A DNA stretch of 64,000 nt. Origin: Cryptobacterium curtum DSM 15641 (lineage in GTDB: Bacteria; Actinomycetota; Coriobacteriia; Coriobacteriales; Eggerthellaceae). Positions 39,129 to 46,140 of the stretch are shown one piece after another (positions within the stretch are counted from its first letter, which is position 1; each line of letters begins with the position of its first letter). The notes under the pieces were generated by a model. The model searched no databases and had not been told where the DNA came from. It saw only the letters and a list, made by a program, of their open reading frames with translations. The translations under genes were made by a program, and so were the position numbers. The stretch spans positions 62,001-126,000 of the forward strand of contig NC_013170.1 in the NCBI RefSeq assembly GCF_000023845.1, written 5' to 3'.

Positions 39129-39454
39129 TTCTGCACCGTTCCTTTTTCTCTAACTGAAGGGGAGAATAGGATATAAAGTGCGCCTTTCATTAATTTTCCA
39201 TTACTGCGTTTTGCCACAGCAGTTTCCTTTTATTACACGATGTAAGCAGATAAGAAGGTTGCAAAATCAACCAAAAAGACGGGTATATTTCGGAAGGTCG
39301 AGGGGGGGGGTAGCAATCCATTCCCTTTAAAGCAATACATGGTATAGTTAGCCTCATTTCGCTGTGCTCCTTTCGGGAGTGCGGTAATAACATATGTATA
39401 CAATGATGGGACTGATCCCCCGTTCGTTGCAGGCGCTACAAGAAAGGAAAAAGA
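39129..39454. promoter_or_regulatory. Divergent region yigZ / pilin operon with nine-G tract
   Basis: This 326-bp region holds no gene. A run of nine G (39302-39310) lies about 33 bp upstream of a -10-like TATAGT (39343-39348), that is just upstream of the expected -35 position. A small hairpin (CTCC / GGAG) is in the leader, and AGAAAGGAAA precedes the pilin ATG. Homopolymeric G tracts at such places are typical slippage sites. Confidence 0.55.
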
Positions 39455-40897
39455 ATGAGAGCAACTTCCCTGACCATCTCGCAGAGGCTTGTCGCAGTAT
39501 GTGCGGCTATGGCTCTTGCGGTGTCACTTACGCCTGGTTTGGCTTTCGCAAGTCCAACTAGTACCACCGATGTGGCTGACAGTACAGTGACAATCACCGA
39601 TCTGCTTGCTGGTGATACGGTTGAGGCCTATCGCATTGCTGATGCCGATATTGATGCAGCCAATAACCTTACCTATACAATGGCCTCTGACCTGCCTTCA
39701 GACTATGACACGATCGATGAGATTGCTGCTGTTGCTTCTGATGGCACTAGTTTCGTACAGGGTAGTGCTATGCAAAACGCTGCAAGCAAAATTGCAAAGG
39801 CTTTTGCTGATGCAAGCACGGCACCAGCAGCAACTGCTACTGCAACGGGCACTTCAGCTAACCTTACCCTTGGCAGTGGCTACTATCTTGTTCGCGTAAC
39901 AAGCACCAGTGGTGAAACACGCGTGTATCAGAACATGGTTATTGACGTTAGCCCCAAGGCCAACACCAACGGAACGTATAATCCTCATGATGCCGTAAAT
40001 GTTGCTGTCAAAAAGACAGACGTGACGGTTAAAAAGACCGTTGGTAGCGAATATAAAGAGTCTACCGATAAGTACAGCGTTGGCGATACGGTTCCATTCA
40101 AGATTGAAACCGCCATCCCTAACTATCCAGCTGATTCTAAGGATGCCACCTTCAAGATTGGTGACACTCCTACCGCCGGTCTTGAGATTGATACAACCTC
40201 TATCATGATCAATGGTGCTACGGCTGTTTCTGGTGCCGACTACACCCTTACGGCAAGTGCTACGGGCTACACCATCGAGTTTTCCAAGGCCTATGTTCTA
40301 GCTCATCCCGGTGAGAGCATTACGGTTACCTACAATGCCAAACTCACTTCTGACGCTTTCTCGCATAGCGCCGACGATGTAACAGGCAATACCGCTACTG
40401 TGACGTTTAATCCGAACCCTTATAACTCCACAACAGTTACTCCATCTGACAAGACCAAGGTCAAGACCTATGGCTATGTCTTCAAGAAGGTGGATGCGTC
40501 AGGTAACTCACTGGCTGGCGCAGTCTTCACGATTACGCTTGCCAATGGCACACAGGTTACGTCTACCTCTGACGCAAATGGCTATGTCTACTTCGAGGAT
40601 CTGGCTGCGGGCACCTATACCGCTACCGAGACCAATGTTCCTGCAGGTCATTTGAAGGCAGCTGATCAGACCTTTACTTTGAGCGAGGCTGTTTGCACTG
40701 CTGACAATCCTGCTACTACTCAGGTCGAAAACAACTATCTCGTTGCAACCAGCGATGTTGTTGACCCCGATCAGCCGCAACTGCCTATTACGGGTGGCGC
40801 AGGTACCTTGGCGCTGACGGCAGCAGGTGTCGTACTTCTTGCCTTTGGTGGTGTCGTGTTTGTCCGCTCTCGGAAGAATCAGCGCGATAACGCATAG
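39455..40897 (+). CDS. LPXTG-anchored major pilin, copy 1
   Basis: The 480-residue surface protein has a Sec signal peptide (cleavage near LAFA-SPT, residue 32), a first pilin domain (to about residue 180), a second isopeptide-type domain (about 185-330), a C-terminal CnaB domain (GYVFKKVD...YFEDLAAGTYTATET, residues 338-430) and a sorting signal LPITG followed by a hydrophobic segment and RSRKNQ. This is the layout of backbone pilins linked by class C sortase. Residues 30-347 are almost identical, at DNA level too, to the pilin at 43729-45177. A hairpin follows the gene, and then a broken sortase. Confidence 0.93.
   Translation: MRATSLTISQRLVAVCAAMALAVSLTPGLAFASPTSTTDVADSTVTITDLLAGDTVEAYRIADADIDAANNLTYTMASDLPSDYDTIDEIAAVASDGTSFVQGSAMQNAASKIAKAFADASTAPAATATATGTSANLTLGSGYYLVRVTSTSGETRVYQNMVIDVSPKANTNGTYNPHDAVNVAVKKTDVTVKKTVGSEYKESTDKYSVGDTVPFKIETAIPNYPADSKDATFKIGDTPTAGLEIDTTSIMINGATAVSGADYTLTASATGYTIEFSKAYVLAHPGESITVTYNAKLTSDAFSHSADDVTGNTATVTFNPNPYNSTTVTPSDKTKVKTYGYVFKKVDASGNSLAGAVFTITLANGTQVTSTSDANGYVYFEDLAAGTYTATETNVPAGHLKAADQTFTLSEAVCTADNPATTQVENNYLVATSDVVDPDQPQLPITGGAGTLALTAAGVVLLAFGGVVFVRSRKNQRDNA
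39542..40495 (+). repeat. 954-bp near-identical repeat, copy A
   Basis: This block matches 43816-44769 with two visible differences: C39565 versus T43839 (silent) and C40440 versus T44714 (Thr329 to Ile). It begins at the end of the signal peptide and ends at the start of the CnaB domain. Flanks are clearly diverged. Confidence 0.95.
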
Positions 40898-40943
40898 CTG
40901 AGGATAGAAGCGTAGTCGTTAACGAGCGGTCTATATAGAACAA

Positions 40944-40981
40944 GCGAACGGGAGGGCAGCATGTGCGTTCTCCCGTTTCGC
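40944..40981 (+). terminator. Hairpin after pilin copy 1
   Basis: GCGAACGGGAG (40944-40954) pairs with CTCCCGTTTCGC (40970-40981, one bulged T). There is no U-run, so it may be a processing or partial termination element that raises pilin message over the downstream genes. Confidence 0.5.
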
Positions 40982-41010
40982 GCCCTCGTTGACGACGCGC
41001 TCCTTATTTA

Positions 41011-41340
41011 AGTGCTTAGTGATGAGGACCAGGCGTATCGAGTTAATTCGACGAAGTCGTATTCCTCAAGGGGTTGAGAGTTTCACGGTAGAGTTCAGAT
41101 GCGCTCTTGTCACGCTTATTACGTGCACTTCATACGGGGTGAATACCCTTCAACTGCTGGTATATGCAGAACGTTGTGATATTCCTCCCGAATGGGCGAG
41201 CATGGATGTGACCTCAGCACGCTCGATAAGTGAAGCCTTTCGTGCGTTCCAGTTGGGTAATATGCCTTGCTGGATTTAGCTTTGCCCTGGCGCTTGTTGC
41301 AACTACTTTTAATGTAACAAGTAGGAGAAAAGATAAAAGA
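41011..41340 (+). pseudogene. Class C sortase remnant
   Basis: The segment matches the C-terminal third of the intact sortase at 45190-46140 in broken frames. From 41014 LSDEDQAYRVNSTK aligns with LGEDHAYEITSTE of the intact enzyme, then a TGA (41075-41077) and a frame change. TLITCTSYGVNTLQLLVYAER then aligns with the active-site region TLVTCTPYGVNTHRLLVHAER. A further shift opens a membrane-helix remnant (FSFALALVATTF, then basic residues). The catalytic Cys is kept, but the catalytic Arg is replaced by Gln, and the N-terminal two thirds with the catalytic His are missing. It is a dead sortase between pilin copy 1 and the tip gene. Confidence 0.85.
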
Positions 41341-41390
41341 AGCTATCGCGTAGCGACTGCATTGCGTAGTAAAGAGGACGATGATACAAG

Positions 41391-43685
41391 ATGATTAAGA
41401 GTTTTTCATCGAGGTGTTCTATAGCCCATCGGGGCGCAGTGTTTCTTTGTGTATTGGGCTTTGTTATTGCTGTAGCCCTCTGTAGTCTTGCTCCTAATAA
41501 AGCTTTTGCTGATCCTATTAGCACGAGTGGGGACCTTCTTAATTCCGTTAGCGGGAACGTTTATCTTACTAATCCCCCCTCAGCAAATAGCGGTCAATTC
41601 TGGAGTAATGGCGCTTGGCATAATTTCAGTGAGATTACACCTGCTGATAAACGTCAAAATGGTCCCGCACGAGATCTTGGCGGCGGTTGGTACATCCAAT
41701 GGATGGGCAAAACCAACGGTGGCGAATATATGATCTGGCGATATCACAATGCCTGGACATATAACGGGGCAACGTGGGGTGGCTTCAAGGTCCGCTTTAA
41801 TAACATCGGTTATACCTCTAAAGGTGAAGCGATCGATTCAATACTTGACTTTACGTCGGTAATGGCTTGGAAATTTGACGGAACCCCAAGCCCTACCTGG
41901 TTTTCACCTTTTGAAATAACAACAAAATATGGCCCCATCGTGGGAGCAGTAACCACTCAGGACGATGCAGCCGATACAACCCCAGTGGGTGTGCAGTCTA
42001 TTTACGGTACTTCTATTGTGAAACATGGAACTGATACGCTTATTGATTCAGACAATGAAGTCGATATCGTATATTGGGATATTGACCGCCCAGTAGTTAT
42101 GCCTGATAAGTCGCTTAATTACAGCTCAAATTGGCGTGAGAGTGTTCACTTCGTTAGTGGATATAAGGGTGCTACTGTTGGTACACACACAACGCTACAA
42201 GTAAGTGATAACGGCACATGGTTCCGTTCAACGCAGAATGACGATTCGCAGGTGCCTGATAACCTTTCAACTGTGGTAGCAAAAGCTACTCCACAGTTCA
42301 CTACTGAATGGCGCGGACATACCTGCTCTACCGGAATTGGATACGACACGCGGGTAACTGTTTATCCTGAATGGTCTGCTCCGGTTAAATCTCCCGAGCG
42401 TCAGATTCATAAGCGGGGAGAGACGGCTTCCTTTGATGTAACTGAGACATTCCCGTATGTGGCAGATTCTAATAAGGCTTCTTCTATCGTGATGGAAGAC
42501 ACCCTAGATAATGCGCTCGACGCGTCTCGGGCTACGGTTCAGGTTCTCAAAAACGGTGTTGACGTAACTGATAACTGGACCATTTCCATCTCGGGTCAGA
42601 CGATTAAGGCGACCGCTAAGAACACAGGACATGGCTATGCAGAAGACAAACACGTTTTCCGCATTACAGCGCCAGTATCTGAGAGTGCCAATTTGGACTC
42701 GTATGAAACAGAGAATATTGATGGGAATAAGTATTGGAAGGTTCCCAATACGGCTTCTGTTGCTGTTAATAACAATGCCAAGGTCACCAATACCGTGCAT
42801 GTGTTTGTACCGTATGAGGCGAAGGGGTCAGTGCAGCTAAAGGCAACCAAGAGCCTTCTCGGTGGTGCTCTTCAGGCGAATCAATTTACTTTCACCTTGA
42901 AAGACAGCAATGGAGCCCTTATCGATACGAAGAAGAACGATACCAGTGGTGCAGTGACCTTCGGTGAGATCCCTTACACTCAAGAAGATATTGGTAAGAC
43001 CTATACCTACACGATTGAAGAGACTCCCGGTGCTGATGCGGGTATGATCTACGACAGTCATAGCGAAACAGTAACCGTGAAGATTGAGGATGCTGGATCA
43101 GGAAAGCTTGCTATAACTACTACCTATGACGATGACGGGGCAGCCTTTACCAATACGAAAACTATTCCGGTAACAGTTCTTAAGACGTCAACCGATGGAA
43201 GCGTGCTTTCTGGGGCAGAATTTACTCTCTATAAAGACGATGGCAACAATACCTTTGATGCCAATGACACTCCGGCAACTGTCTATTCAGATGCTGGCCT
43301 GACAACTGCTATTCCTGTCGCGGTGGTTACTACTGATGCTGCTGGGGAAGGCCATTACTACGGATTGATGCCAGGCACTAATTACTGGATTAAAGAAACC
43401 AAAGCACCTTCAGGATATAACCTTGATACCAAAGCACACCTGATAGCTGTTGCAGCTGATGGCACGGTGAGCACTAAAGACAGCGCTGGCGTGTCTGCTA
43501 ACTTGCCTCTCAAAAATGGGGTGGCGTCTATCACTATTGCTGACGAGCCCATTCCTAATCTGCCATTAACAGCTGGGTCGGGCATGGTTGCCGCACTGCT
43601 CTTCTTCGGAGGTCTGCTCGCTATAGGAGGAAGTGCGCTGATACTTCGTCATCAGTTTTTAGATTCCAAACCAAACGAGAAATAA
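41391..43685 (+). CDS. Large pilus tip/adhesin-like surface protein
   Basis: The 764-residue protein has a signal peptide (cleavage near KAFA-DPI, residue about 40), an N-terminal adhesion-like region of about 300 residues rich in Trp/Tyr/Gly with no recognised family, an isopeptide-forming domain (SPERQIHKRGETASFDVTE, residues about 330-470) and a pilin isopeptide-linkage domain (residues about 480-590, YTIEETPGAD). A CnaB domain follows (about 595-700, GAEFTLYKDD, YWIKETKAP), then a C-terminal anchor. The sorting motif is LPLTAG rather than LPXTG, then a hydrophobic segment and a short polar tail. Position between two pilins suggests the tip or minor subunit; the LPXTA motif may decide whether it is polymerised or wall-linked. 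Confidence 0.88.
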   Translation: MIKSFSSRCSIAHRGAVFLCVLGFVIAVALCSLAPNKAFADPISTSGDLLNSVSGNVYLTNPPSANSGQFWSNGAWHNFSEITPADKRQNGPARDLGGGWYIQWMGKTNGGEYMIWRYHNAWTYNGATWGGFKVRFNNIGYTSKGEAIDSILDFTSVMAWKFDGTPSPTWFSPFEITTKYGPIVGAVTTQDDAADTTPVGVQSIYGTSIVKHGTDTLIDSDNEVDIVYWDIDRPVVMPDKSLNYSSNWRESVHFVSGYKGATVGTHTTLQVSDNGTWFRSTQNDDSQVPDNLSTVVAKATPQFTTEWRGHTCSTGIGYDTRVTVYPEWSAPVKSPERQIHKRGETASFDVTETFPYVADSNKASSIVMEDTLDNALDASRATVQVLKNGVDVTDNWTISISGQTIKATAKNTGHGYAEDKHVFRITAPVSESANLDSYETENIDGNKYWKVPNTASVAVNNNAKVTNTVHVFVPYEAKGSVQLKATKSLLGGALQANQFTFTLKDSNGALIDTKKNDTSGAVTFGEIPYTQEDIGKTYTYTIEETPGADAGMIYDSHSETVTVKIEDAGSGKLAITTTYDDDGAAFTNTKTIPVTVLKTSTDGSVLSGAEFTLYKDDGNNTFDANDTPATVYSDAGLTTAIPVAVVTTDAAGEGHYYGLMPGTNYWIKETKAPSGYNLDTKAHLIAVAADGTVSTKDSAGVSANLPLKNGVASITIADEPIPNLPLTAGSGMVAALLFFGGLLAIGGSALILRHQFLDSKPNEK

Positions 43686-43728
43686 TTGTAGGGTACCTAC
43701 CTTTCCGAGAGCGAAAAGGAGAATGTTG

Positions 43729-45177
43729 ATGAGTTCGGTTGTAAGAACGGGGATGCATAAGGTCAGCTGTGCTGTAGCTGCAGTTGCACTTGCTCTGGCG
43801 TTGACACCGGTTGTTGCTTTCGCAAGTCCAACTAGTACTACCGATGTGGCTGACAGTACAGTGACAATCACCGATCTGCTTGCTGGTGATACGGTTGAGG
43901 CCTATCGCATTGCTGATGCCGATATTGATGCAGCCAATAACCTTACCTATACAATGGCCTCTGACCTGCCTTCAGACTATGACACGATCGATGAGATTGC
44001 TGCTGTTGCTTCTGATGGCACTAGTTTCGTACAGGGTAGTGCTATGCAAAACGCTGCAAGCAAAATTGCAAAGGCTTTTGCTGATGCAAGCACGGCACCA
44101 GCAGCAACTGCTACTGCAACGGGCACTTCAGCTAACCTTACCCTTGGCAGTGGCTACTATCTTGTTCGCGTAACAAGCACCAGTGGTGAAACACGCGTGT
44201 ATCAGAACATGGTTATTGACGTTAGCCCCAAGGCCAACACCAACGGAACGTATAATCCTCATGATGCCGTAAATGTTGCTGTCAAAAAGACAGACGTGAC
44301 GGTTAAAAAGACCGTTGGTAGCGAATATAAAGAGTCTACCGATAAGTACAGCGTTGGCGATACGGTTCCATTCAAGATTGAAACCGCCATCCCTAACTAT
44401 CCAGCTGATTCTAAGGATGCCACCTTCAAGATTGGTGACACTCCTACCGCCGGTCTTGAGATTGATACAACCTCTATCATGATCAATGGTGCTACGGCTG
44501 TTTCTGGTGCCGACTACACCCTTACGGCAAGTGCTACGGGCTACACCATCGAGTTTTCCAAGGCCTATGTTCTAGCTCATCCCGGTGAGAGCATTACGGT
44601 TACCTACAATGCCAAACTCACTTCTGACGCTTTCTCGCATAGCGCCGACGATGTAACAGGCAATACCGCTACTGTGACGTTTAATCCGAACCCTTATAAC
44701 TCCACAACAGTTATTCCATCTGACAAGACCAAGGTCAAGACCTATGGCTATGTCTTCAAGAAGGTGGATCCTGACGGAAACGCTCTTCCGGGTGCTACCT
44801 TTACGCTGAAGGTTACCAATAGCGATGGTTCTGTCACCGAAATCGAATCTACTTCCGACGAAAATGGATATGTTTACTTTTCAGGCTTATCTGCTGGAAC
44901 ATACACCATTTCCGAAACGGTTGTTCCTGCGGGATACACAAAGGTTGCTGATCAGACCTTTACACTAAGTGCAGCTGTTTGTACTGCTGACAACCCCGTT
45001 ACTTCTGAGGTTGAAGATAACTATTTGGTTTCCAGCACAGATGTGGTAGATGGAAAGCAACCTGTCCTGCCTCTTACAGGCGATGTGGGAACCTTTATTC
45101 TCGTCGCAGCAGGAGTGGGATTGCTGGCATGCGCATTCGTTACTATTGCGCGATTCAGGAAGCAAAAGCAGAGTTAG
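43729..45177 (+). CDS. LPXTG-anchored major pilin, copy 2
   Basis: The start at 43729 is chosen because AAGGAG (43716-43721) is too close to the ATG at 43723. The 482-residue protein has a signal peptide whose sequence differs from copy 1 (MSSVVRTGMHKVSCAVAAVA), then residues 30-347 identical to copy 1 except one Thr-to-Ile change. A diverged CnaB domain follows (VDPDGNALPGATFTLKV, YVYFSGLSAGTYTISET), and the sorting motif is LPLTG. It lies 43 bp after the tip gene and 12 bp before the sortase, so tip, pilin 2 and sortase probably form one transcript. Confidence 0.92.
   Translation: MSSVVRTGMHKVSCAVAAVALALALTPVVAFASPTSTTDVADSTVTITDLLAGDTVEAYRIADADIDAANNLTYTMASDLPSDYDTIDEIAAVASDGTSFVQGSAMQNAASKIAKAFADASTAPAATATATGTSANLTLGSGYYLVRVTSTSGETRVYQNMVIDVSPKANTNGTYNPHDAVNVAVKKTDVTVKKTVGSEYKESTDKYSVGDTVPFKIETAIPNYPADSKDATFKIGDTPTAGLEIDTTSIMINGATAVSGADYTLTASATGYTIEFSKAYVLAHPGESITVTYNAKLTSDAFSHSADDVTGNTATVTFNPNPYNSTTVIPSDKTKVKTYGYVFKKVDPDGNALPGATFTLKVTNSDGSVTEIESTSDENGYVYFSGLSAGTYTISETVVPAGYTKVADQTFTLSAAVCTADNPVTSEVEDNYLVSSTDVVDGKQPVLPLTGDVGTFILVAAGVGLLACAFVTIARFRKQKQS
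43816..44769 (+). repeat. 954-bp near-identical repeat, copy B
   Basis: Partner of 39542-40495 at an offset of 4274 bp in direct orientation. See copy A for the two differences. Confidence 0.95.
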
Positions 45178-45189
45178 CGGATAGCAATT

Positions 45190-46140
45190 TTGTCTGCTCA
45201 ACACGCAAAACAACAAGTGGCAACAAGGGAGCCTTCAGGTTCCCCTGCTCGTGTAGTGCGCTCTTCAAAAAAGAAGCGATGGGCGCGCTTACAGTTAGTT
45301 ATTGCTGTCATTATCCTGCTTGCTGGCGTAGCACTTATCAGCTATCCCTTTGTGAGCGATTGGCTTAATCAACGTGCGCAGGACGCAGTAAGTGCCAACC
45401 AGCAAGAAGTCGTAGCCGCTCTTCCGCCTGAAGACCTTTCACAAGAGCAACAACGAGCAGAAGCTTATAACGCCCAGTTATTCTCGGGCAGCTCGCAAGT
45501 AGTTGACCCCTTTGATACCAAGGCTACCTATCTTGGTAACAAAGAGTATGAAAGTGTACTCAATGTTGCTGGCGACGGGGTTATGGGAGAGCTCTTCATT
45601 CCGAAGATCAATGTTGATCTTCCTATTTATCACTACACTACTGACGAATCTTTAACGCGCGGGGTAGGGCATGTAGTAAACACTTCAGTTCCCATTGGGG
45701 GAGAATCTACGCATAGTGTGCTTGCTGGACATACCGGGCTTCCCTCGGCACGTCTTTTTGATCGCCTTGATGAACTTTCGGTGGGCGACTGGTTTATTAT
45801 TCGTGTCTTGGGCGAAGACCATGCCTACGAAATTACCTCTACTGAAGTCGTGCTGCCTGAAGAAGTCGACAGTATCAAGACAGAGGCTGGGCGCGATCTG
45901 GTGACCCTGGTTACCTGTACGCCATATGGCGTTAATACACATCGGTTACTTGTCCATGCTGAACGCTGCGAAGTGCCTGATAGTTGGAATACGTCCGAGG
46001 ATTCCACTATTCGTTTGGTGGCAACCCCTACTGATCTTCCTCGTCATCTGTGGGCATATGCACTGGCGGGTGTCCTTGTAGCTGTAGCTATTATTGCTGT
46101 GGTGTATGTGATCCTTCGTTATCGCCGTCGCCAACGCTAG
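45190..46140 (+). CDS. Class C (pilus) sortase
   Basis: The 316-residue protein has an N-terminal membrane helix (LQLVIAVIILLAGVALISY, about residues 34-52), the catalytic domain with His181 (LAGHTGLPSARLF), Cys243 (TLVTCTPYGVN) and Arg252 (THRLLVHAER), and a second membrane helix near the C-terminus followed by RYRRRQR. Two membrane segments are typical of class C sortases, which polymerise pilin subunits through Lys-Thr isopeptide bonds. The start is a TTG at 45190 with no clear ribosome site; a later GTG near 45250 is possible. It is the only intact sortase in the island. Confidence 0.92.
   Translation: MSAQHAKQQVATREPSGSPARVVRSSKKKRWARLQLVIAVIILLAGVALISYPFVSDWLNQRAQDAVSANQQEVVAALPPEDLSQEQQRAEAYNAQLFSGSSQVVDPFDTKATYLGNKEYESVLNVAGDGVMGELFIPKINVDLPIYHYTTDESLTRGVGHVVNTSVPIGGESTHSVLAGHTGLPSARLFDRLDELSVGDWFIIRVLGEDHAYEITSTEVVLPEEVDSIKTEAGRDLVTLVTCTPYGVNTHRLLVHAERCEVPDSWNTSEDSTIRLVATPTDLPRHLWAYALAGVLVAVAIIAVVYVILRYRRRQR

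Follow-up and report, generated by a model that had tools for sequence, protein, structure and literature searches.

LPXTG shaft pilins of the SpaH/EbpB type (NF033902) include Actinomyces oris FimP and FimA, Corynebacterium SpaD, Clostridium perfringens CppA and Streptococcus sanguinis PilA and PilB. The pilus locus of Cryptobacterium curtum resembles these systems in its three Ig-like domains, isopeptide lysines, E-box, LPXTG motif and neighbouring class C sortase and tip genes. Unlike them, it holds a tandem pair of pilins with a near-identical N- and M-domain core, old and different ends, and a single intact sortase. Paralogous surface genes are known to undergo gene conversion in pilin and other antigen systems. 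As in those systems, a sharp tract of near-identity lies within diverged paralogues in C. curtum; unlike there, both genes are full length, there are no silent partial cassettes, and the uniform part is the shaft body and not a variable region. For group A streptococcal pili, a review describes intragenic recombination yielding new epitopes as unreported for pilus genes (PMC7900414). Our literature search combining gene conversion, sortase or LPXTG, and pilin found one paper only, with a single mention, and the search on C. curtum pili found nothing.

Two pilus units lie in tandem

The window, the whole 64-kb stretch of DNA that was analysed, comes from strain 12-3T, whose genome is a single finished contig of 1,617,804 bp carrying both pilin genes, here called pil1 and pil2. 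On the + strand the order is G9 tract, pil1, sortase remnant, tip pilin, pil2 and class C sortase, with the following features (window positions):

39302..39310, + strand: G9 homopolymer that precedes the pil1 start by 144 bp; candidate phase-variation tract
39455..40897, + strand: pil1, three-domain shaft pilin of the SpaH/EbpB family with LPITG sorting signal; likely recipient
39542..40495, + strand: core copy 1, 954 bp, from the end of the signal peptide through the N and M domains to the first C-domain strand
40496..40897, + strand: pil1-specific end, comprising the C-terminal CnaB domain, the E-box and the LPITG anchor; its closest matches are pilins from genomes G226 (locus L079) and G294 (locus L081)
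41012..41279, + strand: class C sortase remnant, frameshifted
41391..43685, + strand: tip/ancillary pilin with FctA-type and SpaA CnaB domains and LPLTA anchor
43723..45177, + strand: pil2, three-domain shaft pilin of the SpaH/EbpB family with LPLTG sorting signal; likely donor
43816..44769, + strand: core copy 2, 954 bp, differing from copy 1 at two positions
44770..45177, + strand: pil2-specific end, comprising the C-terminal CnaB domain, the E-box and the LPLTG anchor; falls among Atopobium-type pilins
45190..46140, + strand: class C (pilus) sortase, intact

The tip/ancillary pilin is the conserved partner in pil2-type operons, and pil2 is part of a complete tip-pilin-sortase C operon of a type that recurs across many Actinomycetota. 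From a second unit, pil1 has survived, and the sortase of that unit has decayed to the frameshifted remnant. The remnant keeps only the last part of the gene: most of the N-terminal part is lost, the catalytic-histidine region is deleted, and the HR of NTHRLL has become LQ. Its best match is the sortase at L079 (55%), ahead of the intact local sortase (46%), which is the only intact relative recovered in the genome with the one query used. The two cores are direct repeats 4,274 bp apart. Recombination across these repeats would remove the tip gene and join the start of pil1 to the end of pil2; the tip gene is still present.

Each of the two genes is intact and codes for a three-domain shaft pilin of the SpaH/EbpB type. 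Their NF033902 (SpaH/EbpB major pilin) scores of 110.3 for pil1 and 99.4 for pil2 exceed the curated cut-off of 95. The AlphaFold model of pil2 (mean pLDDT 83) has the three-domain shaft pilin fold, and a Foldseek comparison with solved shaft pilins gave hits to those of C. perfringens, S. sanguinis, C. diphtheriae (SpaD) and A. oris (FimP), with a best E value of 7.6e-26. The sorting signals read from the sequence are LPITG in pil1 and LPLTG in pil2. Across an alignment of 18 pilins, K188, K196/N314 and K347/E398/N433 (pil2 numbering) are invariant. By analogy with FimP, K196/N314 and K347/E398/N433 are predicted isopeptide residues and K188 is the probable polymerisation (acceptor) lysine. 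K188 lies eight residues ahead of the invariant M-domain lysine K196, the same spacing that FimP has between its pilin lysine, K182, and its isopeptide lysine, K190 (PMC3485203).

A near-identical core between strongly diverged ends

Direct base-by-base comparison of 39542-40495 with 43816-44769 gave an ungapped match over 954 positions with two differences, both C/T. One, at 39565/43839, is silent (ACC/ACT); the other, at 40440/44714, exchanges Thr for Ile. This reproduces the gapless match described in the first-pass annotation, which had also called the sequence on either side diverged homologues; the amino-acid identities bear this out, at 34.5% between the signal peptides and about 61% between the C-terminal parts. 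By the NG86 method, dS and dN are 0.004 and 0.001 in the core, 2.6 (saturated) and 0.74 in the signal peptide, and 2.6 (saturated) and 0.31 in the C-terminal part. A tract of near-zero synonymous divergence is thus flanked by strongly diverged homologous sequence, the footprint by which gene conversion is recognised. These data strongly support recombination, by which the middle of one pilin gene was most probably copied recently into the other.

The incoming DNA could instead have been acquired by transformation from another C. curtum strain. Such an event would leave the same footprint, and one genome cannot separate the two sources. However, transformation requires a donor strain with the same core, whereas the neighbouring gene, 4.3 kb away, is a simpler source; we therefore consider an outside donor unlikely and copying between the two neighbours the preferred reading.

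The tract ends in conserved motifs

At its 5' end the tract begins with the first Ala of AFA, the signal-peptidase motif, in agreement with the earlier placement of the start in the last signal-peptide residues, so that the entire predicted mature N terminus is common to both pilins. At the 3' end, the match had been thought to stop exactly where the C-terminal CnaB domain begins. It ends instead a few residues inside that domain, at residue 349, after the first beta strand (model strand 341-348) and two residues beyond the invariant isopeptide lysine Lys347 (pil2 numbering). The shared tract therefore includes the N domain, the entire M domain, the probable acceptor lysine and the first C-domain strand with K347. 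The signal peptide, the sorting signal and the C domain beyond that strand, E-box included, differ between the two pilins. Both boundaries sit in highly conserved family motifs, PTS-TDVADS at the signal-peptidase site and KTYGYVFKKVD where the C domain begins. As strand exchange between diverged genes is easiest in conserved stretches and is expected to end in them, no domain-edge mechanism is necessary. Of the earlier proposal of module exchange with boundaries at domain edges, recombination thus stands, and a special role for the edges is weakened by these motifs and by a second gene pair, described below, in which the opposite module is shared.

Neither difference is more than about 55 bp from one of the tract ends, which leaves an interior gap of 874 bp; with differences placed at random, a gap of that size or larger has P = 0.007. 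This means either that repeated conversion favoured the middle or that the interior consensus was partly merged in assembly. The finished genome combined 8-kb and fosmid Sanger libraries (12.9x) with 454 reads (20x), and Newbler contigs, cut into 1000-bp pseudo-reads, were fed into an assembly that was completed with Dupfinisher and finishing reads (PMC3035227). If 454 contigs had collapsed both copies and entered as 1-kb pseudo-reads, the interior identity would in part be a consensus artefact, and differences would survive only near the unique flanks, as seen here. Against this, repeated conversion predicts end-located differences as well, the Sanger clones were able to span both copies and Dupfinisher and finishing reads were applied, and a collapse presupposes near-identical cores next to strongly diverged flanks in the first place. 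A merged consensus is for these reasons very unlikely, and the main conclusion holds under repeated conversion and under assembly merging alike.

The two C-terminal parts have different relatives

Atopobiaceae, other Coriobacteriia, Actinomyces, Propionibacteriaceae and Pauljensenia have relatives of the pil2 operon, usually with tip, pilin and sortase C genes. Of the related loci examined, nearly all have one pilin of the SpaH/EbpB type; L003 has a second, distant pilin (42%). In the small sample of relatives with pilin pairs (G264, G282, G055 and L003), no homogenised pair was seen, and the pairs had at most scattered DNA matches of 65-76% and one short stretch of 85%. We also considered the core as a mobile or phage-borne cassette and rejected this: no relative was found in viral contigs, and the relatives recovered match over essentially the whole gene and not only the core.

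In the tree of C-terminal parts, pil2 grouped with the Atopobium group (L003, L077 and L078) and L080 (support 95/90), and pil1 fell outside the Atopobium group, beside L079 and L081. Forcing the pil1 C-terminal part into the Atopobium group was rejected (p-AU 0.002), as was forcing that of pil2 together with L079/L081 (p-AU 0.004); a single clade of both C-terminal parts gave p-AU 0.083 and was not formally rejected. The groups in these tests were named after the identity table had been viewed, which makes the p values somewhat optimistic. The M domain (residues 190-338) fell in the Atopobium group (support 87/91), and placing it together with L079 was rejected (p-AU 0.010; 0.003), indicating that the M domain follows pil2 and not pil1. 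Tract and flanks thus conflict phylogenetically through the M domain and the pil1 C-terminal part; the N domain gave no placement, and its tree did not discriminate the donor side. Together, the trees give moderate support to pil2 as the likelier donor and pil1 as the likelier recipient, a direction that, like the recency of the event, is read from one genome of one strain. By segment identities, residues 150-190 are L079-like and residues 190-215 Atopobium-like, and the core itself may be a mosaic whose affinity changes near residue 190. Among the aligned pilins, only pil2 has Ile at the non-silent difference, which reads as a mutation later than the event.

C-terminal parts in different clades would also formally fit a recent duplication of an entire pilin gene, after which foreign sequence replaced both ends of one copy. 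This history needs separate swaps, one of the upstream region and signal peptide and another of the C-terminal end with the adjacent sortase, where a single conversion suffices, and we regard it as highly improbable. A simple recent duplication with ends diverging fast under selection has the two tandem copies in its favour and, with dS of about 2.6 in both ends and 0.004 in the core, can be dismissed. The first-pass view that recombination and not simple recent duplication produced the pair accordingly holds on three lines of evidence: saturated dS beside the near-identical core, different C-terminal clades and a diverged sortase remnant.

A second recombined pair of surface genes

Two other surface genes share a 1,093-bp module that is 98.3% identical (G000:C1 1559052-1560144 and 1565299-1566391; L044:6053-7145 and L044:12300-13392), with clustered differences. 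They encode wall-anchored proteins of 963 and 1409 aa whose N-terminal parts are unrelated. The module is the C-terminal stalk, with CnaB-like repeats and an LPKTADEG anchor, and stops a few bases short of the stop codon. As it is the stalk and not an adhesive or polymerising part that is shared in this pair, there is no need to see the pilin case as an adaptation of the part that polymerises. Recombination among surface genes thus recurs in the C. curtum genome and is not tied to the polymerising part.

Long G/C tracts precede surface-protein genes

The G9 tract at 39302-39310 is the sole G or C run of at least 7 within the window. Genome-wide, there are six G/C runs of at least 9 (the other five at G000:C1 38587, 428452, 449316, 1561983 and 1569526), and all six lie 3-144 bp upstream of large surface-protein genes with a signal peptide or LPXTG motif. 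The genes concerned include pil1 and both members of the 1,093-bp pair, each of which has a G tract upstream. The one run of exactly 8 in the genome is away from any such surface gene. This distribution suggests that the six tracts are a candidate genome-wide phase-variation set, and pil1 is possibly a phase-variable shaft protein.

In Bifidobacterium breve, slippage in a G tract inside the first pilin gene switches sortase-dependent pili (PMC9187656). C. curtum is similar in that tracts of this kind (G9-G11) are tied to actinobacterial pilus and surface genes; its tracts differ in lying upstream of start codons and, known here from one genome sequence, are candidates for length variation. Two relatives carry a G11 (L084:12448-12458) and a G10 (L085:12658-12667) inside the 5' end of the tip-pilin gene, and a third carries a C9 (L081:6759-6767) near the 3' end of the tip gene, where slippage could alter the anchor frame.

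Discussion

With high probability, the C. curtum locus consists of two diverged tandem pilus units in which the middle of a pilin was replaced by recent homologous recombination, most simply gene conversion. We propose that one unit comprised pil1 and a sortase that decayed to the present remnant, and the other the complete set of tip, pil2 and sortase C. Recent homologous recombination between the two pilins, most simply non-reciprocal copying, would then have overwritten pil1 from pil2 across the N and M domains and the first strand of the C domain, and the signal peptide, C-terminal CnaB domain and sorting signal would have stayed different. Because the acceptor lysine and the groove-bearing N domain are identical, the one remaining sortase C can probably polymerise both pilins, into mixed or alternative shafts. 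Keeping the polymerising part uniform is a possible role of the tract.

A further scenario, which we put forward tentatively and hold to be rather doubtful as a whole, would have surface variation act in two layers: G-tract switches would choose which wall-anchored genes are expressed, and ongoing recombination would reshuffle the modules of paired full-length genes, making pil1 and pil2 interchangeable. If so, the two pilins would share one polymerising body and differ at the wall or tip end.

Overall, the locus is a clean case in which two sortase-dependent shaft pilin genes, both full length, recombined within one genome, and the same genome holds a second case of recombination. Two pilins with one sortase left offer a plausible reason for pilin homogenisation, and predictions on mixed pili become testable. 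These data point to variable surface proteins in C. curtum, an oral anaerobe that has received little study.
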